Shown here in pieces: positions 28,388-63,820 of a stretch of 64,000 nt of DNA (the first letter of the stretch is position 1; every line of letters begins with the position of its first letter). The stretch is from Bolinopsis microptera. Its lineage: Eukaryota > Ctenophora > Tentaculata > Lobata > Bolinopsidae. The DNA lies in assembly GCF_026151205.1 (NCBI RefSeq), contig NC_087076.1, forward strand, positions 10,640,902 to 10,704,901. The letters are read 5' to 3'. The notes beneath the pieces are model-generated. The model searched no databases. It saw nothing but the letters and a program-made list of their open reading frames with translations, and had not been told where the DNA came from. The position numbers and the translations under genes are program-made.

Positions 28388-28457
28388 TTAACGGGTGATA
28401 CTCGTAAAATATCTGAGTCCAACTCGGCGCGCGTCCTGGTAGGTTGTAAACCTACAA
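28388..28457 (+). mobile_element. E2 mini-element, 70 bp
   Basis: It starts TTAACGGGTGATACTCG and ends AAACCTACAA, flanked by the 8-bp duplication GCTGAAGT (28380-28387, 28458-28465). The right end carries the hairpin TAGGTT, loop GTA, AACCTA. Confidence 0.8.
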
Positions 28458-28653
28458 GCTGAAGTGTTTGCCAACCTCTAGCAGCTGCTGAATTAATATG
28501 TACTGTGCGCTACACCCTCATAATCCCAATCTCAGAGCCGAATGATGATTAATGGCACTGACTACACTCGACTGTCACCTGACTTTTTAAATATGTAATC
28601 ATATCAGTAATAATTCCTCTACCATGTTTTGAACTAAAAACAAACCTTCTGGA

Positions 28654-28758
28654 TTGTAGCGCGATGCACTACTGGGTCGCGCGCGCATCAAATAATGCTT
28701 CTCGCAACCACAACGTATGCAGATCGGCGAGATGCGAAGGATTGACATCGTGAATCAA
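28654..28758 (-). mobile_element. E1-variant mini-element, 105 bp
   Basis: It starts TTGTAGCGCGATGC and ends GACATCGTGAATCAA, the reversed E1 layout with a different middle (CTTCTCGCAACCACAA). It is flanked by the 8-bp duplication CTTCTGGA. Its middle matches 63556-63616. Confidence 0.7.
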
Positions 28759-28914
28759 CTTCTGGACGACTTCCGATGAGTCCTAATGCCTGAAAAATAG
28801 TAAAGGGGGTAAAATAGTATAGCCATAGGGGATGCTATTGTGTATTGCTAAATCACTTTACAGTCTGCAGTCGATCTTCGAGATTTTTCTAAAAGCAAAA
28901 AGGGCCCCTGACAG

Positions 28915-29014
28915 TTGACGGATGTTACTCGTCTAAATTTCTTCGAAGTAGCGAAGTAGTGTGGCAAGTGCTACGAAGTAGCGCGCGCCGGGCCAGATCA
29001 TTAACAATGGTCAA
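28915..29014 (+). mobile_element. E3 mini-element, 100 bp
   Basis: It starts TTGACGGATGTTACTCGTC and ends ACAATGGTCAA, with the perfect 9-bp duplication CCCTGACAG (28906-28914, 29015-29023). The core carries two AGTAGCGCGCGCC-like words. Confidence 0.85.
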
Positions 29015-29115
29015 CCCTGACAGTTGAAAATTAAATCTACCTGGTTCAATATATTTTCGAACGCTGATTCCGAATCACCCCACATGACATAGGGTTTAAA
29101 TGCTCCCCTAGCTGC

Positions 29116-29186
29116 TTGTAGGTTTACAACCTACCAGGACGCGCGCCGAGTTGGAACAAATATTTTACGAGTATATCACCCGTTAA
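29116..29186 (-). mobile_element. E2 mini-element, reversed, 71 bp
   Basis: It starts TTGTAGGTTTACAACC and ends CACCCGTTAA. No duplication is visible at its flanks, so it may sit at a rearrangement junction with the E1 remnant to its right. Confidence 0.65.
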
Positions 29187-29234
29187 CGATGAATTGACAT
29201 CGTCAATTAAGTTATAGTTATACTTTATTATATA

Positions 29235-29393
29235 TTGCTCGTTCGGCGAGATGCGCTACTGTGCCGCACCGAGCTGCTTGCTCTAACCAGAGCCCTCTCG
29301 CTTGCAGAAACAAGCGTGTCACGCAGTACCCGTAGACACATGGCTATGTGAACCGAGCTGCGGTGAAATTCATGAATTGACATCGTCAATTAA
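29235..29393 (-). mobile_element. E1 mini-element, reversed, hosting a nested E7
   Basis: E1 sequence (CGAGATGCGCTACTGTGCCG, then GACATCGTCAATTAA at the right end) is split by the E7 copy at 29278-29352. The left end is not certain and no flanking duplication was found. Confidence 0.65.
29278..29352 (+). mobile_element. E7 mini-element, 75 bp, nested in E1
   Basis: It has the same ends as the RGG-exon copy. The perfect 9-bp duplication CCGAGCTGC (29269-29277, 29353-29361) is itself part of the E1 core, which proves insertion into a pre-existing E1. Confidence 0.85.
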
Positions 29394-29527
29394 CTCGGCG
29401 CGAGGCCCAGTTAAGTAGTGCATTGCGCTACAAAGACACAAAGTACAAGGTTAGTGTTAGGGTTTCAGCATATGCTTCAGTTAGGGATTGCCGGATTGGG
29501 ATCAGATAAGAAGGTTAGGGTTTCGAA

Positions 29528-29640
29528 TTGACGGATGTTACTCGTCTAAATTTCTTCGAAGTAGCGCGCGCCGCTTTCTTCTCGAAATGGCAAGAGCTAC
29601 GAAGTAGCGCGCGCCGGGTCAGATCATTAACAATGGTCAA
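29528..29640 (+). mobile_element. E3 mini-element, 113 bp
   Basis: Ends are as in the 28915 copy; it is flanked by the perfect 9-bp duplication GGTTTCGAA (29519-29527, 29641-29649). Confidence 0.85.
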
Positions 29641-29677
29641 GGTTTCGAACAGTCATTGAGAGCCACATAGACACTAG

Positions 29678-29904
29678 TTGACGGATGTTACTCGTCTATT
29701 TTTTTTCGAAGTATTAACGGGTGATACTCGTATAATATCTGTTCCGTCGACGAGTCCAACTCTGAACTCGGCGCGCGTCACGTCCTGGTAGGTTGTAAAC
29801 CTACAATCGGAGTAGCGCGCGCCGCTTTCTTCTCGAAATATTATGGCCCGATGGCAAGTGCTAAGAAGTAGCGCGCGCCGGGCCGGACCATTAACAATGG
29901 TCAA
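29678..29904 (+). mobile_element. E3 mini-element hosting a nested E2
   Basis: E3 ends are present. The flanks AGACACTAG and AGCACTAG differ by one base, which suggests an older duplication. An E2 copy (29714-29806) interrupts it after TTCGAAGTA, with TCGGAGTA following, an imperfect duplication. Confidence 0.75.
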
Positions 29905-29929
29905 AGCACTAGGTAAGTGGAAGTCTTAA

Positions 29930-31949
29930 AGGACCAGTTAACTGAAAAATTTGTAGTCTCCAATTTGGCTAAGATTTAAATCAGCTGTGACAAACTGGTA
30001 AAGAATCGTATCGCCGAAAGAACCAACTCTCTAGCGTACGTGTACCGCGTGTTATTGCAATAATAAGCTGTGGCCTCGTGACGTCATAAAGTCCCTCAGT
30101 GCGCGCTTGCATAGCGTAATTTACATTACAAATGTTTATCATCGTCAATAAAACACGTGTAACTCACTCAAATTTTAGAATTATGACTATTACCCTAGTT
30201 CTCCAAAATCCTTATAGTTTTGGCTATCATCCTAACTAAAGGAATAGCTGATTGGATGTACAGTGCTCACGTCATGATTTTAAACAGTGATATAGGTTCT
30301 TGAACAGTGGCGGGTGAATGTACGGTTAGAAAGTTTCTGCTATTACAACTTATGTCATATGTGATAATTTTGGATTGTTTTCATTGCTTAATTACACAAG
30401 CAGGGAGACTGTACCGATTATTTTTCCCCAGTCCATGAAACTCTAACGAATTTAGAAAGGATACAGATAAGTAGGAGTTTGTTCAATTCCGAGAGCAATT
30501 ATATTTATAGCATAGCGAAATTTCTAACTTTAATCTGCAAGTGTCTGCCAGTACAGGAGACAAGAAGTCTGGCTACTTTACGGCCGTTCCTCTGGGACCA
30601 TTAGTAGAAGTAGCTTCTATCAGAACAGTGCCGTGGGAACAGAATTCCCGCCAAAATACCCGGTCTACCAAATAGTAAAATTACTGATTGGAGGTGTGTA
30701 CGGTGTGAGGTGTGTTTTGAATTAGACTTCCGGCTTACCTAGTTGTTATCCTTATTGCATTATCATCGGTGCATAACATAAATAAACTACTGGTAAGTTT
30801 AAATACCAAGTGCAATCGTGTTCAGTCGATCGACCCACTGAACAACTATAGAATTTCCAAAACCCTATTATTCTCTGGCCATATATTACGGCACGATCGA
30901 TTGTTAGATGGCTAAATGACCAACGTTAATCTATACAATTCTAAAACTATGAGCTAGCACTTTAATCTAAAAATACCTTTTTTATATTACTCCTGATTTT
31001 TACATTTCACGTAAAACATTGTCGCCAGAGGTTGATCATGGACACTAACAGCTTAATTTGAGATAAATGACTTATGAGTTTCTCTAAAGTTAACTCTAAA
31101 GTTGTGTAGTCCAGTCATTTATGGACATTTATGGAAATGAACCTGCAAATGTTCTAATACTCACGAAACTTTGCACAGACCTTCCCGAAGTTATGATTAA
31201 ACGATTTTCGTTTGGAGACATTTTTTTGACCGTGGAGAAAACCCTGGAGGGCCACGCCCATATTGACCCAATAACGTAACCGACCCCTTGCTTCTGAAGG
31301 TCGTAGAGACTTCAAAATAGGCTTGAACGAAGCCGCATATGCATGTTTATATAGGAGTTATTGAGCAACACATGGCCTAAAATCCTTACTTTTCGATAAA
31401 TTCGCCAAAAACCATTTTGGGCGTGGTGCTAAGCCCATTTTCGATATGATCGTGATGGAGTCTTCAGACAGGATGCAAAAGAACCGCAATTAGCATATTA
31501 ATATATGACTTACGAACAAACATATGCCTTAAAGTGCTTACTTTTTCAGTTATTGGCGAATTTTCGGTTCCAGAAATCATGCAAAACTATGGGTATCTGT
31601 TTAATTGGGCTATGAAGGCCCTAAAGGTTTTTGAATGTGTGCAAATTGTGCAGAATGGCCATGTTTATATACAACTTATGAAGCAACATGTACCCTAAAT
31701 TACTTACTTTTAGAGTTATTCGGGGGAAAAGATTGTATTATGTCCATTTTTTACCTGTAAAATACAGTCTCACGAGCTACTCTGCGCGCAAGAGGGACTT
31801 TATGACGTCATCGCCAAAATAATACAAACGCTATTTACACGCGTTAGAGAGCAGTTAGAGATTTAGGAATTTCGACTCGTTGCTTAGTTTGCTATTTGTC
31901 ACAATCCGTCAAAATATGAGGATAACTTTTTTTTCAGTTAACTGGTCCT
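29930..31949. mobile_element. Non-autonomous DNA transposon, 2.0 kb, TTAA target
   Basis: Termini are AGGACCAGTTAACTGAAAAA and its complement, bounded by TTAA on both sides (29926-29929 and 31950-31953). Inverted similarity extends about 170 bases inward, including GACGTCATAAAGTCCCTC on the left and its complement on the right. TTAA duplication points to the piggyBac or Kolobok superfamily; the AGG start is closer to Kolobok, but that is inference. No transposase frame is present inside, so it is non-autonomous. Confidence 0.85.
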
Positions 31950-31953
31950 TTAA

Positions 31954-32969
31954 ATAAGTCTCGTGACACTTGACAGTAGAGTGTAGAGTGATTAATCATC
32001 ATCCGGGCGAGCGTGACCTGTTAATCAGACAGGAGCGCTCGCAAGGCTGTCAATACTGGTCTAGCAATCACGCTTCGGTCTACAGAAAAGTGATTAATCA
32101 TCACCCCTCGAGTAACAAATGAAATTTTTGAGTTGTATTCTCCCTTCTGGAACAGATAATTTAAATAGTTACAGATTAAAAAATAACTAACAAATTCTCC
32201 AACTTTTCGTTTAAGCACCCATTTGGAATCAAAGTTTGCCTTGAATTTGAAACTGGAGCACGAAGTGCTTGATAAACATAAGATTGAGCTAAAAACACTG
32301 CGCAATTCAGAAAGTGAAAAAGAGTGCCAAAGACGAACTTAAACAATAAAAATACGATAACGTTCTTACTTCTTTAACAGACAAGATTTTTAACTTTTTC
32401 ACTCTCAAGCTCAGTAATAAAATATGCAATTAAATCATCATATTATGTATTACTATCGGTTAGACATCGTCAGCTTTAGTTGAAGTTCTCGGTGGAAGAG
32501 GTATGCGAGTTGCTATTAACAAGGATTAATCAGAAGGAGTGATGCCAACTTTCTTCTATTAAATCAACTTAAACTCGTCTAAGTCTAACCAATCTAGTAT
32601 TTTACTGGAAATAAAACAGTATCCGACAAGTCTCATAAATTATAAAGGAAAGCACACACTAATTCTCGGAAAGTGGATCAAGTATCCAATTATATAACAA
32701 CAACCGATCCAATCACACTTTAACCAATGCATCATTGATTCTATCAATTTTATACTAGTCAACTTGGGAAGCTACATTCGCGCTCTGCGCTGCACTTAGG
32801 AAAATATTTCATAAAAACAACGCGATGTTTCAAGTCATGCATGCTCGGAAGTGATATGATCGGTTTGAAGTCATGTGCCTTGTTCAACCATAGTCTGTTT
32901 CTTCGCCTGATCCACATGCGATCACGTGTTTCTTTTCTCTGAAGTAATGTAGATCCCTACTCTTGTGTG
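31954..32969. other. No gene seen, 3' flank of UBE2Q
   Basis: Bases downstream of the UBE2Q stop. Short frames are present but have no family match or splice support. No element ends from the families in this window were found. Confidence 0.4.
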
Positions 32970-47231: not shown

Positions 47232-48619
47232 AATAATAATAATAATAAATACAACTTTTATAAACCGCCTTATAGCTAAATCATATAACTCGATATAATT
47301 TAATCCTGGAGATAAACTCCAGTGCTTTCTAAAGCGGCTCTTACATTAACTGAGCTTAGTTTAATTGAAAATTAGACATGACAAGTTCATTTTACCTATG
47401 TAAATGCAAAATCAATCAAATGCTAGAGAAAAGAAGTATGTTTTAAGTTTGGTCTTGAAAGATGTAACTGACTCAGCTGATCTTATGTCGTATGGCAAGG
47501 AATTAAATACTTTAACTGCACAGTGACTAAAAGCTTTCTCTGTGTTTACATAGTTAGGAGAGGGCGGAAAACTAAGGTAAAAATAATCATTATCAAGACG
47601 TACATTTTTAAAACTTTGCTGCCTAGGAGATATCAACTCTTTTAGGTAAGGAGGAGCTATATTATTTAAACACTTGTAGGCAAGTAGGGCAATCTTAAAA
47701 TCTATTCTAAATCTAACTGGTAGAAAATGAACTTTCTTAAGTAGTGGAGTAGTGTGTGCCTTTCTTCCTCTCCCGAAAATAAATCTTACAGCAGAATTTT
47801 GCACCTTCTGTAAACGACTTAAATCATAAGAGCTCAGTCCAAAATATACGCTATTGCAATAATCAATTCTAGAGAGTACTAGAGCATGAACAAGCTGAAT
47901 CTTAAGGTTAAAAGACAGTTTTGATGCAATAAACCACAAATTTCTGATCTGAATATTACATGCTTGAACCACTGACGTAATCTGATCACTCATTGAAAGA
48001 TAACTGTCCAAATACAGCCCAAGACTCTTCACAGTTCCACTAACAACATGTGGCTCTTGATCCTTAACAATCTGTAGAGAGGCTGGAATATTTTTTGAGT
48101 CAAATTTAGAGGATATAACGATGACTTCAGTCTTAGAAGAATTCAGTTGAAGGAAATTGTTTGTCATCCATTTCTTGATATCAGACATACAGTGTTCCAT
48201 ATTGTGCTCTAGCTGTGATGGGTCATCAGAATCAAGAGTGAAATATAGCTGGGTGTCATCAGCATACAAATGAATACAGCACCCATGCATACTTGCAATG
48301 TTCTCAAGATCTTTGGTGTACAATATGAATAGCAGGGGGCCAAGGATTGAACCTTGTGGCACACCTATCTCAAGAACAGTTGATGAGGAAGACGAATCCT
48401 TGACTTTGACACAAAATGAACGGTTAGCCAAGTAGGACCTGATCCATGTAAGAGCAATGCCTGTAATGCCATAAGCAGATCTTAGCTTCTTGATTAATCT
48501 TGGGTGATTGACAGTATCAAAGGCAGCACTCAAATCTAGAAGTAAAAGAACAACTTTAGTTTTCTTGTCAATAGTTATCAAGATGTCGTTATGGATTCTG
48601 GTTGTTGCAGTTTCAGTTG
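47232..48619 (-). mobile_element. 5'-truncated CR1/L2-like LINE insertion
   Basis: Inserted in the host LINE with the 5-bp duplication CAGAT (47227-47231 and 48620-48624 on the plus strand). Its 3' end is a TTA microsatellite (47231-47250), as in CR1/L2-like elements. Removing it restores the host reading ETVMASVDVLQRKHLRQ. Confidence 0.8.
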
Positions 48620-49757
48620 CAGATGCCATTACGGTTTCAGGTGCAGCCCAGCTGCTACAGTTATACAACAACACTGAAGTGACAAGAGCTTCGTACAGCT
48701 TCAGCTTTCTACTCTCACTGATCTGAACAGAACTATTCAACCAGACTTTCTTGTAGGTGTAGAAGGCAACATTGGCTTTGTTGCGTCTGTTGACAATATC
48801 TCTTTCTGAACAGAGCTTTGATCCTAATAGCACTGACTCTCGCCACTCTTCATCTCCTCTAATTTTATTGCCATGGGCATCTAAAGCATCTGTATCTGCC
48901 AAATACACTCTTGTAAACACCGTCTTTGATTCGTTAACAAAGAGACTCCAATCCTTTAGTATATCACTGGCAATCTCCAGTATCTTCACCAGGCTCTGAC
49001 CATCTTCACTCAGAAGCTCAGCATCGTCAGCATAGGCGGACTCTAACGGGAGGCCTCTATCAGAGACTGGGGGGTTCGGTCTAGGAATCGTGACACTGAT
49101 CACGGCTCTGATGTGATTCAGGGCACCGGCAAGGGTCAATGTAAACACTTTACCTGCCAGACTGTCTCCCTGGTAAGCGCCAATATTAATCACAAATTCA
49201 CCAGACTCAGATCTGTTGACCGTCACCTTGAGCTTTGTATTTGAGAGGAGGTACTGAACTAGGCGAATGTCGTCTCTAGAGCATCCTGCATCAATGAGGA
49301 GGTTGATGATGGTCTGTCTGCGGATAGTATTAAACGCAGCGGTCATGTCAATGTTGATTTTACTATACTCAAACTCGCGCCTGGTAACCACTGATGTCAA
49401 CATTCTCTGAGACCATACCAGGTCAGCACAACTGCGACCCTGCTTGTATGCCGCCTGCCAAGGTCCAGTGTACATATCAACGTGGTAATTGATTCTGTTC
49501 AAGGCTACGAGGGATAGGACTTTTCTAGTTCCATTTAGCAATGTGAGGGGCCGGATAGACTTTATCGGACCTCGGGGTTTTCCTGGCTTCTGAAGGGGTG
49601 TCAGGATACCTTCTCCAATAGCTGGGATGTATGTGTTGGTCTCAAAGGAGAGATTGTAGATCCTAGCCAACTCACAGTGGAGGGGATATCCAGCAGCTTT
49701 CGTTAGCTCATTAGGTATACCGTCAGGGCCACACGCTCTACCGGATTTCAGCTTCAT
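47412..49757 (-). CDS. Chimeric 781-codon frame with two reverse transcriptase domains
   Basis: Residues 1 to about 380 are the host LINE reverse transcriptase (active-site AYADD). Residues about 385-781 belong to a CR1/L2/Jockey-like element: LLLLDLSAAFDTVNH, GVPQGSILGPLLF, HLYADDTQLYF and the C-terminal SLPYDIRSAESVTSFKTKLK. The join ETVMAS|ATETATTRIHND is in frame only by chance of insertion. Nothing suggests that the fusion is used; it is a by-product of nested retrotransposition. Both halves look young because neither has a stop. Confidence 0.8.
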   Translation of the reverse strand: MKLKSGRACGPDGIPNELTKAAGYPLHCELARIYNLSFETNTYIPAIGEGILTPLQKPGKPRGPIKSIRPLTLLNGTRKVLSLVALNRINYHVDMYTGPWQAAYKQGRSCADLVWSQRMLTSVVTRREFEYSKINIDMTAAFNTIRRQTIINLLIDAGCSRDDIRLVQYLLSNTKLKVTVNRSESGEFVINIGAYQGDSLAGKVFTLTLAGALNHIRAVISVTIPRPNPPVSDRGLPLESAYADDAELLSEDGQSLVKILEIASDILKDWSLFVNESKTVFTRVYLADTDALDAHGNKIRGDEEWRESVLLGSKLCSERDIVNRRNKANVAFYTYKKVWLNSSVQISESRKLKLYEALVTSVLLYNCSSWAAPETVMASATETATTRIHNDILITIDKKTKVVLLLLDLSAAFDTVNHPRLIKKLRSAYGITGIALTWIRSYLANRSFCVKVKDSSSSSTVLEIGVPQGSILGPLLFILYTKDLENIASMHGCCIHLYADDTQLYFTLDSDDPSQLEHNMEHCMSDIKKWMTNNFLQLNSSKTEVIVISSKFDSKNIPASLQIVKDQEPHVVSGTVKSLGLYLDSYLSMSDQITSVVQACNIQIRNLWFIASKLSFNLKIQLVHALVLSRIDYCNSVYFGLSSYDLSRLQKVQNSAVRFIFGRGRKAHTTPLLKKVHFLPVRFRIDFKIALLAYKCLNNIAPPYLKELISPRQQSFKNVRLDNDYFYLSFPPSPNYVNTEKAFSHCAVKVFNSLPYDIRSAESVTSFKTKLKTYFFSLAFD

Positions 49758-50228
49758 AACAGCACGGCCAACTTCTTCAGGTGTTATGGGACAGAGGAGG
49801 CTTCCAGGAGGGTCAATGAATGCTTTACTCTGTAAAATGTGCTAAAAATTAAATTTCTTGTTTCATTGAAAATTTCTTGTTTCATTGAATTTGTGTAACA
49901 GAAGCTCATTTAAGTAGTGATATATTAGATGCCGAACTTTATATTGAAAGATTTAGTATGTTTAGAAAAGATAAAGATTTTAGAATTGACAATTCCATTG
50001 CTAAAATCACTGAAAACTGTTATTTTGATGATTTTTATCAACTTTGGAGTCCCGTTGTCATCCAAGTTATTTTTGAAATCTTCTGAAACTTTGCATACTT
50101 ATCAAACTATATATAAAATACCACTATGCAAAAATGTATGTTGATTCATTATTGTATGCGTACGCAACGTCCGCTCAAAGTTTGCATGTGCGAAAGGTGA
50201 GAAATCTGTTCATTCGTTATTTTGTTAT

Positions 50229-50343
50229 TTGGTTGACGATGTCAACCCATCGAGATCGTTGCTCTGCGAAGCAGAGCAACGATCGACGATGTGAAGCAAG
50301 AATGCTAGTTCGCGCGGCGCGTCGAAGCGGCGAAGTCCTCCAA
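50229..50343 (+). mobile_element. E4 mini-element, 115 bp
   Basis: It starts TTGGTTGACGATGTCAACC and ends AAGTCCTCCAA, with the perfect 9-bp duplication TTTTGTTAT (50220-50228, 50344-50352). It contains a 14-bp perfect stem with loop GAA (50254-50284) and a 7-bp stem with loop GAT (50231-50247). Confidence 0.85.
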
Positions 50344-50459
50344 TTTTGTTATTTGTTATTTCGAATAAATTCTGCTTTCCCACAACATTTAAATGGCATT
50401 ATATCATATATATGAACTTAATGCCAACTCCAAACTCAAAACTTGAATATGTAAAAAGT

Positions 50460-50549
50460 TTAATTGACGATGTCAATTCATGGCAGCTCGGCGCGGCACA
50501 GTAGCGCATCTCGCCGATCTAGCTGTATCAGTAACGCATCGCGCTACAA
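50460..50549 (+). mobile_element. E1 mini-element, 90 bp
   Basis: It starts TTAATTGACGATGTCAATT and ends CATCGCGCTACAA, with the perfect 9-bp duplication GTAAAAAGT (50451-50459, 50550-50558). Confidence 0.88.
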
Positions 50550-50618
50550 GTAAAAAGTGCCATATTAAGTCACTTATTGACAGATATGCCTACTTAAACA
50601 CAAGTGACAAGGAAATGT

Positions 50619-50722
50619 TTGTATCACGTGGTGACCCCCACTGTCGCTTCACTATAGTAGAGTTTCTACGATACAGGGGGAGCCGCGCACTCGTGCGCGG
50701 CGGGTCATACAACGTATGACAA
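50619..50722 (+). mobile_element. E5 mini-element, 104 bp
   Basis: It starts TTGTATCACGTGGTGACC and ends CAACGTATGACAA; it is flanked by GGAAATGT (50611-50618, 50723-50730). Hairpins: GTCATAC, loop AAC, GTATGAC at 50704-50720, and a 9-bp GC stem at 50682-50701. Confidence 0.8.
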
Positions 50723-50774
50723 GGAAATGTTTTCAAAGGTAAAATTCCAAAATCTTTGAAATCACCTCCTTGTT

Positions 50775-50858
50775 TTACTGGGCCGCGCTCAGCCTGTCAT
50801 TCCGCCAAATCTTTATTTATAATGTTTATGAACATAATAGCCTGGGGTCCCCAGGTAA
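50775..50858 (+). mobile_element. E6 mini-element, 84 bp
   Basis: It starts TTACTGGGCCGCGC and ends CCCCAGGTAA, with the terminal hairpin CCTGGGG/CCCCAGG. Clear flanking duplication is lacking for this copy. Confidence 0.75.
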
Positions 50859-50987
50859 CTCGTTATAATATAATAAAGTTATGAGTTTACATTTTGCCTT
50901 TGTAAAGTACCCTGAAATTATAATCAAAAAGAAATAATATTTGACCGAATCCCATAATCACGGATAAATAATAAAGTGGACCGCTGC

Positions 50988-51098
50988 TTAATTAATATAA
51001 CGGGTGATACTCCTAAAATATTTGTTTCAAATATTAGACCGTCGACGCGGACGAATCCAACTTGGCGCCGCGCGTCTTGGTAGGTTATAAACTTACAA
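50988..51098 (+). mobile_element. E2 mini-element, 111 bp
   Basis: It starts TTAATTAATATAACGGG and ends AAACTTACAA, with the perfect 8-bp duplication ACCGCTGC (50980-50987, 51099-51106). Confidence 0.85.
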
Positions 51099-51198
51099 AC
51101 CGCTGCCAGTGTTTCTTTATTCCAAACAAAAGCAAAAAGGAAATAATATTAATTTGAATAACCGTCTGCAAATGCAAATTGATACCGAAACAAATGCG

Positions 51199-51292
51199 TT
51201 GTAGGTTTATAACCTACCAGGACGCGTGCCGAGTTGGACTCGTCGACGGTCCTAATAATTGGAACAAATATTTTACGAATATCACCCGTTAA
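51199..51292 (-). mobile_element. E2 mini-element, reversed, beside an E7 remnant
   Basis: It starts TTGTAGGTTTATAACC and ends TCACCCGTTAA. It is immediately followed by CAAGCGTGTCACGCAGT, the second half of E7, so it probably inserted into or recombined with an E7 copy. No matching duplication. Confidence 0.65.
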
Positions 51293-51425
51293 CAAGCGTG
51301 TCACGCAGTTCGCGTAAACTCATGGATAGGTAAAGAGTACGATGTTCGAGCTAGAAGGGATCAACATTTTAAAATCAAATTAGCAATTAAGATCATTAAA
51401 TGACATGGCGTTTGCTTTATCGATC

Positions 51426-51503
51426 TTACTGGGCCGCGCTCAGCCTGTCATTCCGCCGAATCTCTATTTTTAATGAACATGATAGCCTGACGTCCCCAGG
51501 TAA
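51426..51503 (+). mobile_element. E6 mini-element, 78 bp
   Basis: It starts TTACTGGGCCGCGC and ends CCCCAGGTAA, with the perfect 8-bp duplication TATCGATC (51418-51425, 51504-51511). An E7 fragment (CCAGAGCCCTTGCGCTTGCA, from 51511) and a truncated reversed E2 (about 51560-51640) follow. Confidence 0.85.
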
Positions 51504-51646
51504 TATCGATCCAGAGCCCTTGCGCTTGCAGTGGCGCGCGCCCGCCCGCAGTAGCGCGATTGTAGATTTATAACCTACCAGGACGCGCGCCGAGTTGGAC
51601 TCGTCGACGGTCCTGGAACAAATATCTTAAGAGTATCACCCTGCAC

Positions 51647-51877
51647 TTGACCATTATTAATGGTCTGGCCCAGCGCGCGCTACTTCGTAGCACTTGCCGT
51701 CTTAACGGTTGATCATGATACTCGTAAAATATCTATTCTATATATATATACAGGTGACAGGACCGTCGACGAGTCCAACTCGTCGCGCGTCCTGGTAGGT
51801 TGTAAACCTACAATTAACGTCGATAAGAAAGCGGCGCGCGCTACTTCGAAGAAATTTAGACGAGTAACATCCGTCAA
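51647..51877 (-). mobile_element. E3 mini-element, reversed, hosting a nested E2
   Basis: It starts TTGACCATTATTAATGG and ends AACATCCGTCAA, with the 8-bp duplication CCCTGCAC (51639-51646, 51878-51885). A forward E2 (51702-51813) sits inside, with diverged flanks CTTGCCGTC and ATTAACGTC. A partial E4 (GAAGCAAGAATGCTAG to GTCCTCCAA) follows at 51896-51937. Confidence 0.8.
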
Positions 51878-51966
51878 CCCTGCACCTGTTAATGCGAAGC
51901 AAGAATGCTAGTTTGCACGGCGCGTCGCAGTCCTCCAAGGATAGCTTCGGGGTTATGTGTTATGGT

Positions 51967-52050
51967 TTACCTGGGGACCTCAGGCTATCATGTTCATAAA
52001 TCTAGAGATTACTGATTAGGCGGAATGACAGGCTGAGCGTGGCCCAGTAA
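51967..52050 (-). mobile_element. E6 mini-element, reversed, 84 bp
   Basis: It starts TTACCTGGGGACC and ends GTGGCCCAGTAA. Flanks GTTATGGT and GTTATGCA match at six of eight positions, suggesting an older insertion. Confidence 0.7.
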
Positions 52051-52082
52051 GTTATGCATATTGTTGGAATTAGGGTTTATGT

Positions 52083-52202
52083 TTAATTGACGATGTCAAT
52101 TCATGGCAGCTCGGCGCGGCACAGTAGCGCATCTCGCCGATCTAGTGAGAAGCCTTATTATATTAAGTGCGCGGCGCGGCAAAGTAACGCATCGCGCTAC
52201 AA
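52083..52202 (+). mobile_element. E1 mini-element, 120 bp
   Basis: E1 ends are present; the perfect 9-bp duplication is GGTTTATGT (52074-52082, 52203-52211). The middle includes AGTGCGCGGCGCGGC, not found in the 90-bp copy. Confidence 0.88.
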
Positions 52203-52237
52203 GGTTTATGTAAAACTGTTTTGTTCGGCTGCAAAAC

Positions 52238-52327
52238 TTGGAGGACTTCGTCGCTTCGACGCTCCGCGCAAACTAGCATTCTTGCTTTACAAAGCAACGA
52301 TCTAGAAGGGTTGACATCGTCAATCAA
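52238..52327 (-). mobile_element. E4 mini-element, reversed, 90 bp
   Basis: It starts TTGGAGGACTTCG and ends GACATCGTCAATCAA, with the perfect 9-bp duplication CTGCAAAAC (52229-52237, 52328-52336). Confidence 0.85.
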
Positions 52328-52372
52328 CTGCAAAACCATAAAAACCAAAGCACAAAGTCACGTGATAATTTC

Positions 52373-52585
52373 TTGTCATACGTTGTATGACCCGCCGCGC
52401 ACGAAGTGCGCGGCTCCCCCTGTATCGTCAGGACGATAAAGGGGTGAAACGACCGTGGTTAATTGACGATGTCAATTCATGGCAGCTCGGCGCGGCACAG
52501 TAGCGCATCTCGCCTTATTAAGTGCGCGGCGCGGCAAAGTAACGCATCGCGCTACAACGACCGTGGGTGTCACAACGTGATACAA
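52373..52585 (-). mobile_element. E5 mini-element, reversed, hosting a nested E1
   Basis: It starts TTGTCATACGTTGTATGAC and ends ACGTGATACAA, with the perfect 8-bp duplication ATAATTTC (52365-52372, 52586-52593). The GC hairpin at 52394-52414 has loop GAA. Confidence 0.85.
52459..52557 (+). mobile_element. E1 mini-element, 99 bp, nested in E5
   Basis: E1 ends are present; the perfect 9-bp duplication CGACCGTGG (52450-52458, 52558-52566) is E5 sequence, so this insertion is younger than the E5 copy. Confidence 0.88.
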
Positions 52586-54400: not shown

Positions 54401-54434
54401 TACTAGAATTTGTCAACGAAGAAGAACTCTAAAT

Positions 54435-54720
54435 TGTTACCACAGCAACCATTCAATGTTGCCATAGAAACTACACACTCTTAACATAGCAACCACACAC
54501 GGTTACCGTAGCAACTCCAAATCACTACCTAGCAACTAAACACTGCTACCATAGTAACTACGTACTGATACTATAGCAACTACACACTGTTACCATAGCA
54601 ACTACACACTGTTACCATGGCTACTAGTACACACTGTTACCATAGCAACTCACCATAGCAACTACACACTGTTACCATAGCAACTACACACTGTTACCAT
54701 AGTAACCACACACCGTTACC
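54435..54720. repeat. Minisatellite of palindromic X-box-like units
   Basis: About thirteen copies of GTTACCATAGCAACTACACACT-like units (22 bp consensus, split here as GTTACCATAGCAAC plus TACACACT). GTTACCATAGCAAC fits the palindromic RFX/X-box consensus GTNRCC-N-RGYAAC. Variants include GTTACCACAGCAAC and GTTACCGTAGCAAC. Confidence 0.8.
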
Positions 54721-54725
54721 AGGAA

Positions 54726-54806
54726 CGAGAGCGAGGGTCGACAAGGGGCTATTGCGATGCAATCTGGACAAGAGTCCAGGCTGGCTCCCTTAGTTCCAAC
54801 CTCTCG
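54726..54806. ncRNA. Foldable repeat, copy A
   Basis: An outer stem (CGAGAG 54726-54731 with CTCTCG 54801-54806) encloses two adjacent hairpins: ATTGC, loop GAT, GCAAT (54751-54763) and CTGGAC, loop AAGA, GTCCAG (54764-54779). Copies B and C keep the pairing with different bases. Transcription is not shown and the strand is unknown. Confidence 0.4.
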
Positions 54807-56303: not shown

Positions 56304-56695
56304 GGGCGAGCGGCATGGCAACTCTGATTCTTTACAAATAGTTATCTTACCAATCATACAGTACGCAAAACGAACGCAGATTTCAATTCTTATATAGCGA
56401 AATAGCCGAAGTGCGCGGAGGCCGGGGAGAGGGGCAAGCTCCGGCGCGCGCGCCGGGATAGCACCCCAACACGGCAACGCGCAGCAGAGTAGTGGGGTCG
56501 GCCACACTACCGAATACACGAGAAGCCAACCCGGGATTTATTACCCGCACGGCTATATTATTATGCGCAGTTGAAACCTGGGGGCTCGCCGACCAGGTTC
56601 ACCGGGTGGAAACTGAAGGCATATATGACCCCCATATCTGAAAGCAGGTTGGGGGCACTACGGAAAGCTTAGAAGCTCCCGTCACCTACTAACTA
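56304..56695 (-). promoter_or_regulatory. GC-rich block with a minus-strand TATA-like box
   Basis: It contains CGCGCGCGCCGG and, on the minus strand, CGCTATATAAG (about 56388-56398). A transcript from this TATA running leftward would pass through repeats C and B. The block separates them from the LINE frame at 56696. Whether it is a real promoter is unknown. Confidence 0.3.
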
Positions 56696-59026
56696 CTAAC
56701 TACTAAGTGCTATATCATCTGCAAAGTCCACATCGGTGATGATCTTGGGCCCCACTCTTCTGCTTTTTCTACGTTCGAGGGTGAGTCCAAGTCGCTCCGC
56801 ATCATCGCCTATGGCTTGCCTCATACAGTAGTCGATGACTATTGCAAAGAGGTAAGGTGCTAAGGTATCACCCTGTAACACACCTGCAAGTATCTCGAAC
56901 AATTCAGTTTCTCCGTCTGGAGTTAGGACTTTGGCCATTGTCTTCTCGTACATGAGCCGTATAAGCTGCACGATTTTGACTGGAATGCCGTAAGCTTCTA
57001 GAATCTTTAGCATTTTCCCACGATGTACACTGTCGAAAGCCTTCTTAAAGTCTATAAATGTCAGAACAGCTGGCAGTTTCCGACTCTTGACACCCTCTAT
57101 AAGACGTCTCAGTACCAATATCTGTTGAGTTGTTGACCTTCCTGGTCTGAATCCATTCTGGTTTCTACGCAGAATTGTCTCGATTTCTGGCTTCAACCGG
57201 TTTAGAACCATCTTGTTTAGAGACTTGGCAACTAGGGATGACAAGCTTATTCCCCGATAGTTCATTGGTTCGCTAAGGTCGCCCTTCTTTGGAATTGGTA
57301 TGATGTTGGCAGTTGACCATTGGTCTGGTTTCTCACCTTTCAATAGAGCATTGTTACAGAAGTCTAAGACAATTAGATCAAGGTCGCATCGTTTTAAGAC
57401 TTCTGGGGCTATGTTGTCGTCACCCCATGCTTTCCCTGCCTTTATGCTGGACTTTGCTTTCCTGTACTCATCCAACGTAAACGGTTCTGTTCCGATATTC
57501 AGAGGTGGGTGGACTGGATCAATATCCTCTTCCGCGTTCTCTACCGTCGGTGGTGAGCCGAGAAGAGTAGCAAAATAGTCCTTCCATTTCTGAACCCTTT
57601 CCGTTGGTGAGTTTCCCTTGATTTTGCCAGTATATGATGGAGCTTTACCTGTGATCTTGTTGATCATGGTCCAGCTTTTAGCATGTCTGCCCTGCCAACT
57701 TGCTTCCTCCACTTCCCGGACCTGCCCCTCCAGCAGGTGCTCTTTGGCTGCTTGATAAGCATCGCCTAGCTTCTGTTTGCCCTCTTGAACAGCTATTCGG
57801 TTGTCTTCTGTAGCATCTGAGTGGTATTTTATGCTACATTCCCTCAGCTTCAGCCTGGCAATCTCAACACTTGGAGTCGCTGAGATTTTACATCTTTTCT
57901 TTTTCTCCTTTTCAGGTAGTAAAAGTCGAGAAGTTGTCCTATTCGCATCAATAAAGCATTGGTACCTTTCTGTTGCCGTCTGATCATCCTTTTCAAGTAT
58001 GGAAAAGCGGTTTTTAACTTCCACTGTGTACCTCTCTTGTAGAGCGATATCAGTTTTAAGTTTAGACCAGTCCAGAACCGGAGCCCTCTTCTCCGTCTTG
58101 CTTATCCGTAGACTAAGCTTTACCCTTGCTACGACTACTCTGTGATCCGAGCCAATACTGTGGAAACTACCATATGCTTCGGAGTTCTTGACGGAGTTCC
58201 GCCATTTCTTCCGGCAAATGATGAAGTCGATTTGAGATTTACTTTGACTCATATCTGAGAGATATGTCCAGAGTTTACCTCTTCGCTTCTGAAATCTGGT
58301 GTTTGTGATTTCTAGCTGTCGCTCCAACAGCATATCCTCTAGCAGTCTACCATTTCGGTTTGCTGGACCCTTGTGGAAGGATGTCCAGTTTCCTGATGAT
58401 GAGACATGCGCATTGAGGTCTCCTACAACGAATAGTAAGTTGTGGGCTGGTATCTGGTCGATGGCACCACCAAGGCTGTCGTAGTAGTTTTCTGCTTCGT
58501 CGACAGTCGCCCCCTCTGTCGGGCTATAAGTCACAATAACAGTTGTGACCGGGTTCCCTGCAAAGTTGGCTACCATCGTCCTCCTGTCATGTGAGTATAC
58601 ACTAATCAATGAGTTGAATACTGTCTTTTTGTCCAAGACAATACCAACCCCACCAGCAGCCGCCCCATTGCTGGTTCTCCATGCCGAAGTTGTTATGAGG
58701 TGAGAGCTTCCAAGATCTTGATACTCGATTTCAGTGCTATGTACTACCCGATGCTCCTGAATGCCCAAAATATGTACGCCACTATCCCTCATGCATACAC
58801 CCAGCTCATCCCTCTTGTATTGTTCTCTTATTGTTCGTACATTAAGAGTTCCTACAAGAATTTCCTTCTGGCCACGTAGTAACTTAGGGTACCAGCCTTT
58901 GAAAGAGTTGGAGCAGGAGATTTGGGTGTGACCCGCCGGTCGAGAGATTAAGGTGTGTGCCCGAGGTAAATACCCCACACACCATGTGTTGAGTCTACGG
59001 CGGCGCCCGGCCAATAGGCAGGTCAC
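56696..59026 (-). mobile_element. LINE ORF2: endonuclease plus reverse transcriptase, 3'-truncated
   Basis: A 776-codon open frame. APE-type endonuclease (about residues 55-300): VGTLNVRT, LGIQEHRV, VVGDLNAH, GSDHRVVV. Reverse transcriptase (about 480-776): MNYRGISLSSLVAKSLNK, NGFRPGRSTTQQI, FIDFKKAFDSVHRGK, GVLQGDTLAPYLF and DFADDIAL. The frame ends six codons after the catalytic FADD with a short TAGT repeat, so the rest of the polymerase and the 3' end are missing. A LINE copy normally loses its 5' end; loss of the 3' end points to a later deletion or recombination. The initiation codon is unclear; the longest reading starts at GTG. It resembles RTE/craniofacial-development-like LINEs; clade not fixed. 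Confidence 0.85.
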
Positions 59027-59381
59027 AAATTGTTTTGCCAGACTTGTATAACCGCATCATAGTACTCAAGCGAACAACCATCCCCCTGTTCGCTAGGGCC
59101 GTTACTGCAGAAAGCCTCACGTCTAGAACAATTGATCATTTGTCGCTCCTGATCCTAGAGCATCCTTGTCTCGTTACTTGTCACATGCACTTTTTCTAAA
59201 GAGGAACTGTATAGTGATATACAGAAAGAAAATCTGTAGTAGATTTTCAAAGGCGACTGATAATATTGCGGACGCCACACCAGCAATATGACAACCATAC
59301 CATAATCCAACATTCCCATGCACCTTTATAGTTTAGAGTGCTTAGAACTATCCCAACTGCCAATATATTGCCAAAACGTTT

Positions 59382-60131
59382 TTGTCCAACAGAAATGCCA
59401 ACTATAGTTATAGTGTTATACACTGTGCCTCAAATTATTTGATCAAAGAGTGGAATCTGAATATTAATGAATCAAAGACAGAGTTTGTACACGTCTACAT
59501 AGCTGGGAAAGATGAGGTCATGGATGATGGTAAACCCCTTAGAATGAATGAAGAATGGTGCAGTAGCAAGTTGTTGGGTTCTCTGCTAGAAAGTAGGAAA
59601 GATGTCACCAGAAGAATCATGTTAGCCAATGTAGCATTCCAGAACTTCAAGAAGGTCTGGTGCCAGAGTAAGATCCCCCTACAGAAGAAGCTGAAGGTCT
59701 ATGAGGCCCAAGTAGTATCTATCCTCATGTATAACTCTAGTTGCTGGGGAATGCCTAAATCGTACTGGGACAAACTAGATGCATGTCACCGTAACCACCT
59801 CAGAAAGATCATGAATGTCAGCTGGCCACGCAGTATTATGTCCAAAGATACCCTCTACAAACAGAGTAACTCTACCCCTATGTCTGAGCGTGCTGAGTTA
59901 TCTAGGTGGAAGATGCTAGGACACATACTGAGGAGCGATGAAAGATCACCAGCTCAAGCTGCGCTGTGTTTTGCTGTCGAGATGTGTAGTGAAGTTGGTA
60001 GACTCGGGGCTCACAGACGTAACCTCCTACACCACCTGAAGGTTGACCTCTGGAAGCGTTTCATCTTGCTGGAGTCAATGAAACGAAAAGTTTTCAATGA
60101 AACGAAAAGTTTTATTTTACATTCCTCATAA
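59382..60131 (+). mobile_element. LINE 3' fragment, same family as the 46.8-49.8 kb host LINE
   Basis: It encodes the region after the catalytic centre: NINESKTEFVHVYIAGKDE, YNSSCWGMPKSYWDK, HRNHLRKIMNVSWPRSI and SRWKMLGHILRSDE, which aligns with VFTRVYLADTD, YNCSSWAAP and WKMLGHVLRS of the other copy. It is truncated on the 5' side. The tail has two AATGAAACGAAAAGTTTT units. The bases 60100-60190 match the complement of 45955-46050. Confidence 0.75.
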
Positions 60132-60689
60132 ATAAAATAAGAGCTTAAACCACGAATTAGTTAGCTAGAAGTAAACTTGAGGAAATATTTTTGGTGATTG
60201 TATATAATTATTTAAAAAACTTTATTTGGTTGTTAGTATTTTAATTATGGTAAGTGGTTGAATTTAGTGAGACAAGGTCAGTTTCTCTATTATCTTAGAA
60301 AAATTCCTACTAAGTTACAGTAGGCAATGCTGAGTGGCAGGAATGAGGGACCAAAACGCTTGGGGCTAACAATGGCCCATTTACAAACCACTTCAGACAT
60401 GGCAATGATGTCATTTATGCTTAATTCGTCTGAAACTGACCCTACTGCACTTGTAACATTCTATAAAAATCTCTTCTAAAATAGGTATAAAAATGCATAA
60501 CACAAAACACACAAACAAAATGTTTATAATCCTTATATAATAAATTTCTATAGAACTTTTAAATTTATATAAAACTAATAAACCTATATATATATAATTC
60601 ATTTTGCACCCAGAGAAAGATGTGATCACAGAGGTAGTTTCGATATTATGTTCATGACAAGGTATGGGGCTGCTGCAAGTTATATTTTG

Positions 60690-62105
60690 CTAAGATATTA
60701 CCGCTTTTTCAAGCTTAAGTAATCTAGGCAAGGTCAATTTTAAAGTTTTTGAATTTTGTCGAACGCTGTTTAAGGCTAAGTTCCAGTCATTTGGTTCTCC
60801 TTCCTTTTGAGTGTGAGTGATGGTGATTCTTATGGATGATTTGAGGTGATTGGGCTTATAACAGGTGAATGTAGTTAGCATGAGATTTTGTCGTACTGTA
60901 TTCCATATTGTCCCTGCTCTGTATATGTAGCTGTCTGATGGTTTAGGTGTGAGAATGAGGGTCTCTTTGCCAAGTCTGCCAGATGTTTCAAAGAGGGACT
61001 ATAGTGATATAGGGGTTCTATATTTCAAGACCTTGAAGATGTCATTAATACAATGGTAGAAGTACAGATTATGCACATTCATGATTTCATGAGTGTTGAA
61101 GAGGGGTTTTGTATGCTCCTTTCTGTAGAATTCCTTGCCCAAGATTTGCTCCCCGTAGGGTCTGCATCGTGCACTAGTTTTAAATTTATCCAAGTATGCT
61201 TCTTTATCTCCAAACATTATGCGGGCACACATTTTCTGTGCTTTGAACAGAGGTTCAAGTTTTTTGTTAGATGCCCCTCCCCAGACAGTTATACCATATG
61301 CAAGATAGCTTTCAAACAGAGTGTGATATAGATCTTTATGGAGTGATGTGGGAATGTTATCTTTAATTCTATTTAGCATGCCACAGCAGCTGGCTAGTTT
61401 TTTTGCTAATTTCCTTCTATGTGCGTTCCAGTTTAGGTCTTTATCGATTGTTACACCTAAGAATTTAGTTTCATGTACTCTCTCCAAGGGTATGCCATTG
61501 ATATTGATTTCTTGATCAGAGGGTGTATCTTCATCTTTGTTGGATCGAGAGTTTGAGAATTCAAGGTAACAGCTCTTGCCAGTGTTTATGTGAAGTTTAT
61601 TGGCAAGCATGTAGCGGTGTACGGAATTTAGGACTTCATTGGCTTTTTTGTATGCTAGGTTTTTACTTTTTGCAGCGACGAAGATATTTGTGTCATCAGC
61701 AAATAGAACAAATTTAGAGTTCTTTTCAGAGTTTGTAAGATCGTTTATGTAAATTAAGAACAGAAGGGGCCCTAAGCAGCTCCCTTGTGGCACTCCAAAA
61801 AGCACAGGTAGAGTATCAGATATTTCATTGAGCACACCAACATATTGTTTACGGTCGGAAAGATAACTTTCCAGGAGTTTGTGTGCCCGTCCTCTGATCC
61901 CGTATGTGTTTAATTTTTTGAGAAGTATTGAGTGATCTATTGTATCAAATGCTTTACTTAGGTCGATAAAGATTCCTAAAACATGATTACCGGCTTTGAG
62001 TGACTGCTGAATGTGGTGAATAGAGTAGTTGAGTGCATGTGATGTTGAATGACCCTTTCGGAACCCAAACTGGCTATCGTGCAGTATTCCCTGACTCGAG
62101 AGAAA
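60690..62105 (-). mobile_element. CR1/Jockey-like LINE fragment, 5'-truncated, one in-frame stop
   Basis: Reverse transcriptase motifs read continuously from about 62095: SQFGFRKGHSTSHAL, GIFIDLSKAFDTIDHS, GVPQGSCLGPLLFLIYIND, VLFADDTNIFV and KFLGVTIDKDLNW. A TAG at 60999-61001 interrupts the frame; the same frame then resumes (SLFETSGRLGKETLI, IYRAGTIWNTVRQN) to 60690. A 22-base piece of the element (about 61704-61725) is repeated at 62104-62125 next to the truncation point. Confidence 0.85.
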
Positions 62106-62125
62106 ACAAATTTAGAGTTCTTTTC

Positions 62126-63555
62126 AGTCGTATGATGATATTCTCCATTTGAGAGAACTTGCTAGTGACCGTGGTTATTGGACTAAATTGTTTAACTTTA
62201 TACTTGAGTAGAAGTCAATTTGACTATTGGGACATATAATTTTACAAAGGATCACGTTTCGGTTCTAAATTATTTTAGGATTGTTGACATTTGTAAGATT
62301 GACATGTTTGATGTGGTTTCATCAATAAAAACGAAGAAGTTTATAAATTTGAATTAGGGCTAGCGTTGGACCTTATTTAAAATGTTTTGACTCCTTAACA
62401 TGTTCACTTCATAAAATTAAAGTTTAAATTAATCTATATTTTTATTCATGAACATTTTTGATTATCTTATGTATCCTTACGTTTTGATATAATTTGATTT
62501 GTGGATGCTTGCAGAGTAACAAGGTGAGATATCTGCAACATCAGTTAAATAAAAGGAAGTGATTAATTACTATTCTACAATGGTTGGAGCAAATTAGAAA
62601 CAATTCATCAAAAATGGTGCACTTCGTTGTGTTACTAATATTTTTATGTAAGTTAGCAGATGTTCTTACTGGTGCCAATATAACTAATTTGGCGATCTCT
62701 GAGGAATCTACATTGCTTTATTAGTTGTGTAAAAATTATGTCCAAAATCAAGTAGTATCTGAGGCTAAACAAAACAAAAAAAACAGTTCTTGTAAGTCAC
62801 ATTTTAAAACAAACTCTTAAAACAAAACTAACTAATAAATATTACTTTTGACCTAAATTTGAGTCTTTGAGACTTACAAATTTGGCCTCTAGGGTCTTAG
62901 TGGCACAAGGTACTCAAATTAAAGTGCAGATAGAGGTTTAAGTTTAGGAACTGTGAAAAATTCCTCTTGACCATGTCATAATTTCTATGTGAATACTCAC
63001 CTATGGTTGACTCAGTCGAATGATAAAAACAGTGATAAAGGGTTATTGATACAACAGTTATATTATTCATTGATCACTGTTTTCTAGGAACACACCACTT
63101 TAGCATAGCTATAGAATTAGAGCCCTGTCCCCTGAATCGTCCCCTTCAGTAAATGTAAATTATGTGTACTAAAAAAACCATTTCAAATTGACGATTTAAG
63201 TGCAGGACCATACGTGACGAGTACTCCTTTGTGCTTTGTATATTCAAAGTATTTAAAAGTAGTAACTTATACGGAAAACCGCTTGCCAATTTAACGAAAC
63301 ATGAAATTTTAACTATTCTATGACAGCAATTATGAATTATGTTAAATGTCATTGTGCTTTAAGTTTATTGTATCTACATATTATACTACATTCTTACTTC
63401 TCAATCCTCTCCCTTGAGTGTACAACTGAATAACTTTTCGGAGCTAAAAAGTTGACTCAGTGGTGACAATACAAAATTGCTATCAAAATTAAAAATAATT
63501 AACATCTTGGAAACCTCTAACAAATTGCAAATGTTAACTTCAATTGTAAGTGAGG
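62126..63555. other. No gene seen
   Basis: AT-rich sequence with short frames only. No splice-supported coding segment and no terminal repeats of the known families were found. Confidence 0.4.
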
Positions 63556-63616
63556 TTGTGGTTGCGAGAAGCATAATTGATTGCGCGGCGCGTCCCAGTA
63601 ACGCATCACGCTACAA
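63556..63616 (+). mobile_element. E1-variant fragment, 61 bp
   Basis: TTGTGGTTGCGAGAAGCATA to CATCACGCTACAA matches the complement of the middle and left part of the 28654 element. No flanking duplication, so it is a partial copy. Confidence 0.55.
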
Positions 63617-63702
63617 GCGCGACAAACAACAGACAAAGAAATAAAAAAGATTTGTCAAATGAAGTGCTTGACCAAACAGACTAAATTAATTTCCTACAAA
63701 AC

Positions 63703-63820
63703 TTGCTCTGTCCAGAGCCCTTGCTCTTGCAGTGGCGCGCGCCTACCTCCTCCCTCCCGGCGTTGTGAAACAAGCGCGCCCGCAGTGCCACAGTGGCGCA
63801 AAAGCACATCGTTAGGTGAA
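63703..63820 (+). mobile_element. E7 mini-element, long form, 118 bp
   Basis: It starts TTGCTCTGTCCAGAGCCC and ends CATCGTTAGGTGAA, with the perfect 9-bp duplication CTACAAAAC (63694-63702, 63821-63829). It carries an extra CTCCCTCCCGGCG segment relative to the 75-bp copies. Confidence 0.85.

Follow-up and report, generated by a model that had tools for sequence, protein, structure and literature searches.

Short TT..AA elements with palindromic ends in a ctenophore genome, probably non-autonomous DNA transposons

How a single insertion chemistry could act on DNA ends that have a palindrome in common, and no sequence in common, is the question raised by a 64,000-nucleotide stretch of the genome of the ctenophore Bolinopsis microptera (contig NC_087076.1 of assembly GCF_026151205.1, forward-strand positions 10,640,902 to 10,704,901; the whole stretch is termed the window from here on). 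The window contains seven families, E1 to E7, of tiny elements which start with TT, end with AA and are flanked by target site duplications (TSDs). These are mobile DNA elements, present at many sites with a duplication of 8 or 9 bp, as a sequence-only reading of the window had proposed. That reading had also seen that different interiors obey the same end rule, and the rule turns out to be stronger than claimed, since it includes a dyad at a fixed place, which had been missed. The elements are probably DNA transposons of the non-autonomous kind, which a DDE-type transposase mobilises in trans, most plausibly one resembling that of the Mutator-like elements (MULEs).

In the window, 16 elements distributed over the seven families combine their family's TT..AA ends with an exact 8- or 9-bp TSD; across the families, in the window and elsewhere, elements are mostly 52–132 bp long. 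The sequence-only reading had counted 18 such insertions; the insertions are real, but the count differs, the two lists not having been matched individually. Its family numbers are followed where the sequences allow, although E6 here is the family of the element at 50619–50722 and may differ from the E6 of that reading. Moreover, a scan that is blind to family and asks only for an exact TSD and TT..AA ends, over 38–400 bp, gave 16 matches with 9-bp duplications against 1–4 per shuffled sequence, and 33 with 8-bp duplications against 4–9 (ten shuffles in each case), where all counts include overlapping and chance matches.

The same structures are found throughout the assembly (264.65 Mb in 232 contigs, 13 large ones, ~258 Mb in all, holding nearly all of it; contig C1 is 26.2 Mb). 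A 25-mer from the left end of E5 occurs 1,838 times and a 24-mer from its right end 1,180 times, while the reversed controls do not occur at all. Similarity searches with stretches of the window gave 944–4,632 first-look candidates per query, numbers which are to be read with the knowledge that every query except that for E7 (944 candidates) took in further elements or flanking DNA as well. Sixty copies were fetched in this way; an exact TSD adjoins the expected ends in 46 (E5 13/20; E4 16/20, one of them 10 bp; E6 8/10; E7 9/10), and in a further six the TSD has one mismatch. In other words, the ends are precise in most copies, rather than variable and without duplications.

A wider tally, over the window and loci L001–L100, was restricted to copies with exact end 8-mers and an exact TSD, such that copies with mutated ends or TSDs drop out, and it counts some post-insertion duplicates more than once (arrays in L096 and L099, and the pair L008/L011). 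It comprises 106 copies, 39 with an 8-bp and 67 with a 9-bp TSD. By family, the ratios of 8 bp to 9 bp are 1:9 (E1), 4:3 (E2), 3:5 (E3), 3:22 (E4), 15:7 (E5), 12:1 (E6) and 1:20 (E7), an uneven distribution (chi-square 46.8, 6 d.f., p = 2e-8, some cells being small). The earlier assignment of 9 bp to E1, E3, E4 and E7 and of 8 bp to E2, E5 and E6 thus describes a tendency that holds, but both lengths are present in every family.

That the target is duplicated on insertion is seen from empty sites. When the flanks were joined with a single copy of the TSD, 35 of 105 joins matched elsewhere across the junction under permissive criteria (75% identity with gaps), and 14 of these 35 do so at ≥ 90% identity with at most one gap; the matched sites often lie within another tiny element. 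In the array at L096, empty and occupied units agree at 90 of 90 bases, and the joined flanks of the nested E1 copy at 52459–52557 match an uninterrupted relative at 92% with three gaps. Position counts around 116 target sites, a set that includes alternative registers of one element, reveal no strong target motif, G being moderately over-represented as the first base of the TSD. Identical E5 copies are found with different TSDs, and identical E7 copies with different flanks, and because copies at different sites are identical it appears that activity has been recent. Tandem arrays of E4 and E7 at 0.7–1.3 kb spacing were considered as possible long elements and rejected, being local duplications that followed insertion. 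In composition, the elements are GC-rich within AT-rich DNA, as had been claimed, with family means of 0.45–0.55 against 0.385 for the window; six of the seven families are also dense in CpG, with observed/expected ratios of 1.1–1.7, E2 having the same value as the window (0.78).

The ends themselves have a common architecture. Each family end consists of TT followed, from two nucleotides inside the tip, by a dyad, usually of two 7-nt arms around a 3-nt centre (7-3-7), with its centre at nucleotide 11. Folding of ten elements as DNA places hairpins, in most of them, exactly two bases from the tip, and at least five of the seven stem pairs form around the 3-nt centre in 11 of 12 family ends, E7 being left apart. 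A scan for elements with a TSD, TT..AA and a 7-3-7 dyad (≥ 5/7 pairs) at both ends found 52 in 127.7 kb, made up of the window and the 60 fetched loci, the latter having been chosen for holding such elements; of ten shuffles, nine gave none and one gave one. Other offsets and loop lengths gave 0–2 elements, save for four registers: two with the same centre (31 and 20), one at the E7 centre (offset 0, loop 4; 18) and one, unexplained, at offset 0 with loop 3 (7). Likewise, the 12 family consensus ends without E7 have on average 5.67 Watson–Crick pairs of 7 at centre 11 and at most 2.58 at any other centre.

It is the pairing, and not the sequence, that is held in common. The dyads are unlike at the two ends of one element and largely unlike between families, yet pairing is found at 68 of the 84 stem positions. 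Shuffling the 3' arms among ends leaves a mean of 30.9, and none of 20,000 shuffles reaches 68. Since the left ends of E4 and E3 are alike to those of E1 and E5, respectively, they were removed in a control, in which 56 of 70 positions pair against 24.7 shuffled, with again no shuffle reaching the observed value. Related ends differ by paired changes, as in AATTGAC/GTCAATT at the left end of E1 and GGTTGAC/GTCAACC at that of E4. Most families were taken from the sequence-only reading's list and from repeat content; E6 is not an independent case for the dyad, because hairpins were already being looked for when it emerged from a TSD scan. Of ten whole elements, eight have DNA folding z-scores in an unremarkable range, from -2.1 to 0.2, and two have lower ones, -4.3 and -6.6; the argument therefore rests on the terminal dyads and not on the folding of entire elements. 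As had been stated beforehand, the tiny elements contain no open frames and share no terminal inverted repeat. A further family was noted at L038 (674–872), where 199 bp with a nested E4, or ~75 bp without it, are flanked by the TSD AATTTTCC and bear dyads of 6/7 and 5/7.

Such conservation of dyad without sequence invites the thought that one transposase, of a new DDE superfamily or otherwise reading shape, recognises the ends of all families as hairpins or cruciforms whatever their sequence. Beyond the pairing statistics and the paired changes between related ends, this would fit with the lack of such ends at the MULE and Merlin loci sampled (see below). However, the unpaired stem positions of the commonest end sequences, read on the 5'-TT strand, comprise six G.T, eight A.C and three other mismatches; G.T is not above A.C, and folding of one particular strand is therefore unsupported. 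Moreover, binding of a dimer to a palindrome in double-stranded DNA, by an enzyme specific to each family, predicts the same dyad and accounts for it equally well. A shape-reading enzyme common to all families is, accordingly, rather unlikely in our estimation, and slightly more doubtful still is the full proposal of an animal DNA transposon superfamily with shape-defined ends, in which a 17-nt dyad two nucleotides inside TT, probably as a hairpin or cruciform, would be served by a transposase not yet described.

The origin of the tiny elements can be followed furthest in E5. For the 100 exact E5 left ends that head the list, all of them on C1, exact right ends were sought as partners, giving 38 short pairs (63–111 bp, mode 93), seven long pairs (within a bracket of 140–20,000 bp) and 55 unpaired ends. 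Two of the long pairs, of 8,505 and 9,490 bp, have a common interior and exact TSDs (ACATAACA and CTCAAACT). From the 62 left ends in long pairs or unpaired, 39 were fetched, two long pairs of ~16.6 and ~17.4 kb not being among them. Loci L105, L107 and L128 enter one common long interior, the right end of L128 not having been found, and the other fetched left ends, as far as they were read, belong to minis with altered right ends, to minis interrupted by elements or to deleted copies. A query made from both interior flanks of one long copy, L121, gave 58 first-look candidates, of which 40 were scored, and led to further long copies, among them the complete L147 (~7.1 kb, exact TSD GTTCTAAC) and L145 (~4.0 kb, 9-bp TSD with one mismatch). 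The four complete copies fetched, L121, L122, L145 and L147, are of 4–9.5 kb and are located on contigs C1, C6 and C7.

These four complete copies are taken to be non-coding, with the qualification that short exons might escape the tests applied. None contains a stop-to-stop frame of 90 amino acids, a length that shuffled L121 attains in 16 of 20 trials and shuffled L122 in 19 of 20. Between L121 and L122, substitutions number 89, 93 and 90 by codon position and seven of 56 gaps are multiples of three; between L145 and L147 the corresponding values are 18, 18 and 25, and three of ten. The Pfam matches of ten short frames of L121 all stayed below the family cut-offs, and Rfam at its own cut-offs found nothing in the window or in the four copies. 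Comparison of both ends of L121 revealed no longer terminal inverted repeat. The sequence-only reading had suggested a search for a long autonomous copy with these termini; long copies do exist in E5, but the four complete ones are taken to be non-coding, and no autonomous copy was found. A 563-amino-acid frame in the middle of a ~21-kb E5 copy was considered as a transposase and rejected: it matches RNase H above the Pfam cut-off and reverse transcriptase below it, and since it also lies between repeated AAATAAGTCCTCT, beside an AAAC-rich tail, it is a nested piece of a long interspersed nuclear element (LINE).

Of 22 verified E5 minis (L008 and L011 among them probably being one duplicated insertion), 14 are wholly covered by the start and the end of L121, with 0–4 bases of overlap and several different junctions; the copy at 28388–28457, for instance, is covered by 28 nt of the left end and 43 nt of the right end of L121. 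The E5 minis thus appear to be an internal-deletion series of the kind known for miniature inverted-repeat transposable elements (MITEs), the parent seen here being, from its sequence, itself non-autonomous. What is evident in any event is that E5 comprises well over a thousand minis together with multi-kilobase non-coding copies, which share only the ends. Several of the four long copies contain internal repeats of ~0.3–0.9 kb, and L121 has, by eye, CCAAT- and TATA-like motifs near its right end and AATAAA near its left, motifs which suggest that it may be a transcribed non-coding unit. Two subtelomeric loci, L143 (C11) and L144 (C10), contain ~400 bp of the E5 long interior with the left end at 92% and no exact end; their subtelomeric blocks, near chromosome ends, are 94–99% alike in parts.

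Two further explanations were considered. Structured RNAs copied back by a LINE, in the manner of short interspersed nuclear elements (SINEs), would be short, structured and abundant, as the tiny elements are, and reverse-transcriptase genes are present in the window; in addition, the first 7 nt of the E5 copy L020 are missing beside a duplicated TATGCCGG, in a way that resembles 5' truncation, but this loss may be read as a later deletion between GG repeats. SINEs mobilised by LINEs have, however, TSDs of variable length and an A-rich or repeat tail, neither of which is found in the tiny elements. Rather, both ends are precise, the TSD is fixed at 8–9 bp, there is no A-tail, an internal-deletion series exists and non-coding copies of 4–9.5 kb keep both ends intact, all of which makes a SINE-like origin highly improbable. 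The least probable of the explanations considered is that these are introner-like elements, which create introns; short, TSD-flanked elements that make introns do exist, but TT..AA ends give no GT..AG boundary and the lengths of the elements vary freely.

A DDE transposase is marked by such a combination: TSDs fixed at 8–9 bp, ends that are precise and a series of internal deletions. In the explanation that we favour, such an enzyme, supplied in trans, would bind the dyad at each end, either as a protein dimer while the DNA is double-stranded or after the dyad has been extruded as a hairpin, and would join the AA-3' ends to target strands 8–9 bp apart; the minis would derive from longer copies by internal deletion, and the enzyme would have been active recently. 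Among described elements, Muta1, a MULE of Aedes aegypti, behaves most similarly, and the MULEs are therefore placed first, an assignment of the enzyme to this superfamily which, as a separate step, we make tentatively and at something short of even confidence. The published account of Muta1 (PMC5225508) gives for MULEs in general a TSD of 8–10 bp. For Muta1 itself it reports TSDs of 8 bp in 21 events and of 9 bp in 39, slight or absent preference for a target sequence, a 10-bp palindrome as the terminal motif and > 300 derivatives, most of which share the ends alone. Its likeness to the tiny elements thus lies in the occurrence of both TSD lengths in one family, the slight target preference, an imperfect palindrome at the end and variable interiors. 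The same account describes 145-bp terminal inverted repeats, subterminal repeats and a 10-bp palindrome with two unpaired bases (PMC5225508). Unlike Muta1, the tiny elements have no shared terminal inverted repeat, and their 17-nt dyad, with three unpaired bases, lies 2 nt inside the tip and differs between the ends.

With respect to the known classes, all seven families have TSDs of the length that MULEs make, 8 or 9 bp, and the 10 bp of one E4 copy is also in that range. The inverted identity of the two ends is limited to TT..AA, the dyads being different; long terminal inverted repeats are typical of MULEs, though MULEs without them are known. The hAT elements make 8-bp TSDs, whereas the majority of the tallied copies (67/106) have 9 bp. 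MITEs are short, non-coding, of high copy number, flanked by TSDs and formed by internal deletion, and are defined by matching terminal inverted repeats. The tiny elements are likewise short, non-coding, many-copied and TSD-flanked, with an internal-deletion origin seen for E5 only, but what their two ends have in common is limited to TT and the presence of a dyad; as these ends are not mutual inverted repeats, strict membership of the MITEs fails. The ATons of Aedes aegypti are similarly abundant families of short non-autonomous elements without a known autonomous partner, but have terminal inverted repeats and the target dinucleotide AT (PMC3422177), and the Replitrons reported from green algae and land plants similarly lack terminal inverted repeats, with TSDs of 2–8 bp, but have short direct terminal repeats and an HUH enzyme (PMC10741241). 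The open literature, covered mostly at the level of title and abstract, yielded no account of such elements in ctenophores and none of TT-dyad ends; subscription papers and repeat databases lay outside this coverage, and absence from print is not established by it.

Several observations weigh against a DDE transposase of MULE type acting on all of these elements. Eight of the 60 fetched copies have no TSD. The strong bias of TSD length by family could mean that several enzymes are involved. The right end of E4 pairs at only two of seven positions, and E7 has a different dyad, 5-4-5. Above all, no transposase-encoding element with TT-dyad ends was found via Merlin, MULE, KDZ or P-type enzymes, hAT, Helitron, Crypton and others not having been searched; the shared transposase that the sequence-only reading suggested is thus a putative one. 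The MULE transposase domain has 88 matches in the genome, of which 15 loci were fetched and 73 matches were not examined, and candidate ends start with GG, CG or GA, not TT. In 15 MULE and 20 Merlin loci together, several of whose true ends could not be fixed, there is no TT-dyad pair whose TSD is exact or differs at a single position (0, against 0–1 in shuffles). KDZ (PF18758) and P-type (PF21787) searches gave no genome matches, the controls being equally silent in both, and two end patterns searched for in viral contigs gave nothing. That the tiny elements are instead non-autonomous Merlin (IS1016-type) elements is suggested by the 8–9 bp TSDs which Merlin makes, and which are found here, and by intact-looking genes in the genome, there being 58 matches to the IS1595-type DDE family, many of them in open frames of 295–337 amino acids. 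Alignable copies from the 20 loci fetched, 38 matches being left unexamined, nevertheless begin GGCAGT, GGTAAC or GGCAAC, without a TT-dyad, and GG-type inverted ends are absent from the tiny elements, such that Merlin is a very unlikely source.

Positions of the elements within the window are collected in the table. In two regions, 28388–29904 and 50229–52585, they are clustered, several being nested in one another. The 266 bp at 28388–28653, which include an E5 copy, are identical to C5:11073441–11073706, a recent duplication ~0.4 Mb off.

Tiny elements identified in the window, with target site duplications and the number of paired stem positions in the dyads of the two ends
Element	Position	Strand	Details
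E7 copy, 75 bp	26980..27054	+	exact 9-bp TSD CCACATTCG; 5-4-5 dyads at both ends
E5 copy, 70 bp	28388..28457	+	exact 8-bp TSD GCTGAAGT; dyads 5/7, 7/7
E1 variant, 105 bp	28654..28758	-	exact 8-bp TSD CTTCTGGA; dyads 6/7, 6/7
E3 copy, 100 bp	28915..29014	+	exact 9-bp TSD CCCTGACAG; dyads 5/7, 6/7
E7 copy, 75 bp	29278..29352	+	exact 9-bp TSD CCGAGCTGC; 944 first-look genome candidates
E3 copy, 113 bp	29528..29640	+	exact 9-bp TSD GGTTTCGAA; dyads 5/7, 6/7
E3 copy split by E5 copy (~29714-29806)	29678..29904	+	family ends in place; inner E5 TSD with one mismatch, outer E3 TSD imperfect (by eye)
E4 copy, 115 bp	50229..50343	+	exact 9-bp TSD TTTTGTTAT; dyads left 7/7, right 2/7
E1 copy, 90 bp	50460..50549	+	exact 9-bp TSD GTAAAAAGT; dyads 7/7, 6/7
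E6 copy, 104 bp	50619..50722	+	exact 8-bp TSD GGAAATGT; dyads 5/7, 7/7; further genome copies
E2 copy	50775..50858	+	E2 ends; no TSD accepted by the scan
E2 copy, 78 bp	51426..51503	+	exact 8-bp TSD TATCGATC; dyads 5/7, 4/7
E3 copy, 231 bp	51647..51877	-	exact 8-bp TSD CCCTGCAC; dyads 7/7, 5/7; nested insertion with E5-type ends at 51702 and 51813
E1 copy, 120 bp	52083..52202	+	exact 9-bp TSD GGTTTATGT; dyads 7/7, 6/7
E4 copy, 90 bp	52238..52327	-	exact 9-bp TSD CTGCAAAAC; dyads 3/7, 6/7 (read from its two ends)
E6 copy, 213 bp, with nested E1	52373..52585	-	exact 8-bp TSD ATAATTTC; dyads 7/7, 6/7
Nested E1 copy, 99 bp	52459..52557	+	exact 9-bp TSD CGACCGTGG
E7 long variant, 118 bp	63703..63820	+	exact 9-bp TSD CTACAAAAC

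Elsewhere in the window, frames in 47412–49841, 56696–59056 and 60999–62111 match reverse transcriptase above the Pfam cut-off, one of them with an endonuclease domain, and are of LINE type, and the frame at 59346–60131 has no Pfam match. A 371-amino-acid frame at 13965–15080 has, by eye, the look of a seven-helix receptor, with no Pfam match at 0.001. Minisatellite-like repeats, with units of ~22 and 47–55 bp, are present at 54417–54743 and 19803–20104, respectively.

If the tiny elements are indeed DNA transposons moved in trans, they add an abundant group of such transposons in a ctenophore, a lineage that is possibly sister to the remaining animals. The end structure of this group, TT with a dyad centred on nucleotide 11, would escape repeat finders that look for inverted repeats. 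A study of the ctenophore Mnemiopsis describes chromatin-loop anchors with a GC-rich motif containing two CpGs, and DNA transposon insertions in > 90% of the promoter regions engaged in distal contacts (PMC12221973). Given the CpG density of most families, the elements might therefore be connected with genome folding. Should the ends prove to define a superfamily by their shape, unrelated sequences would turn mobile just by gaining such ends, and the CpG-rich cores of the elements may have spread putative sites for the loop-anchor proteins of ctenophores.

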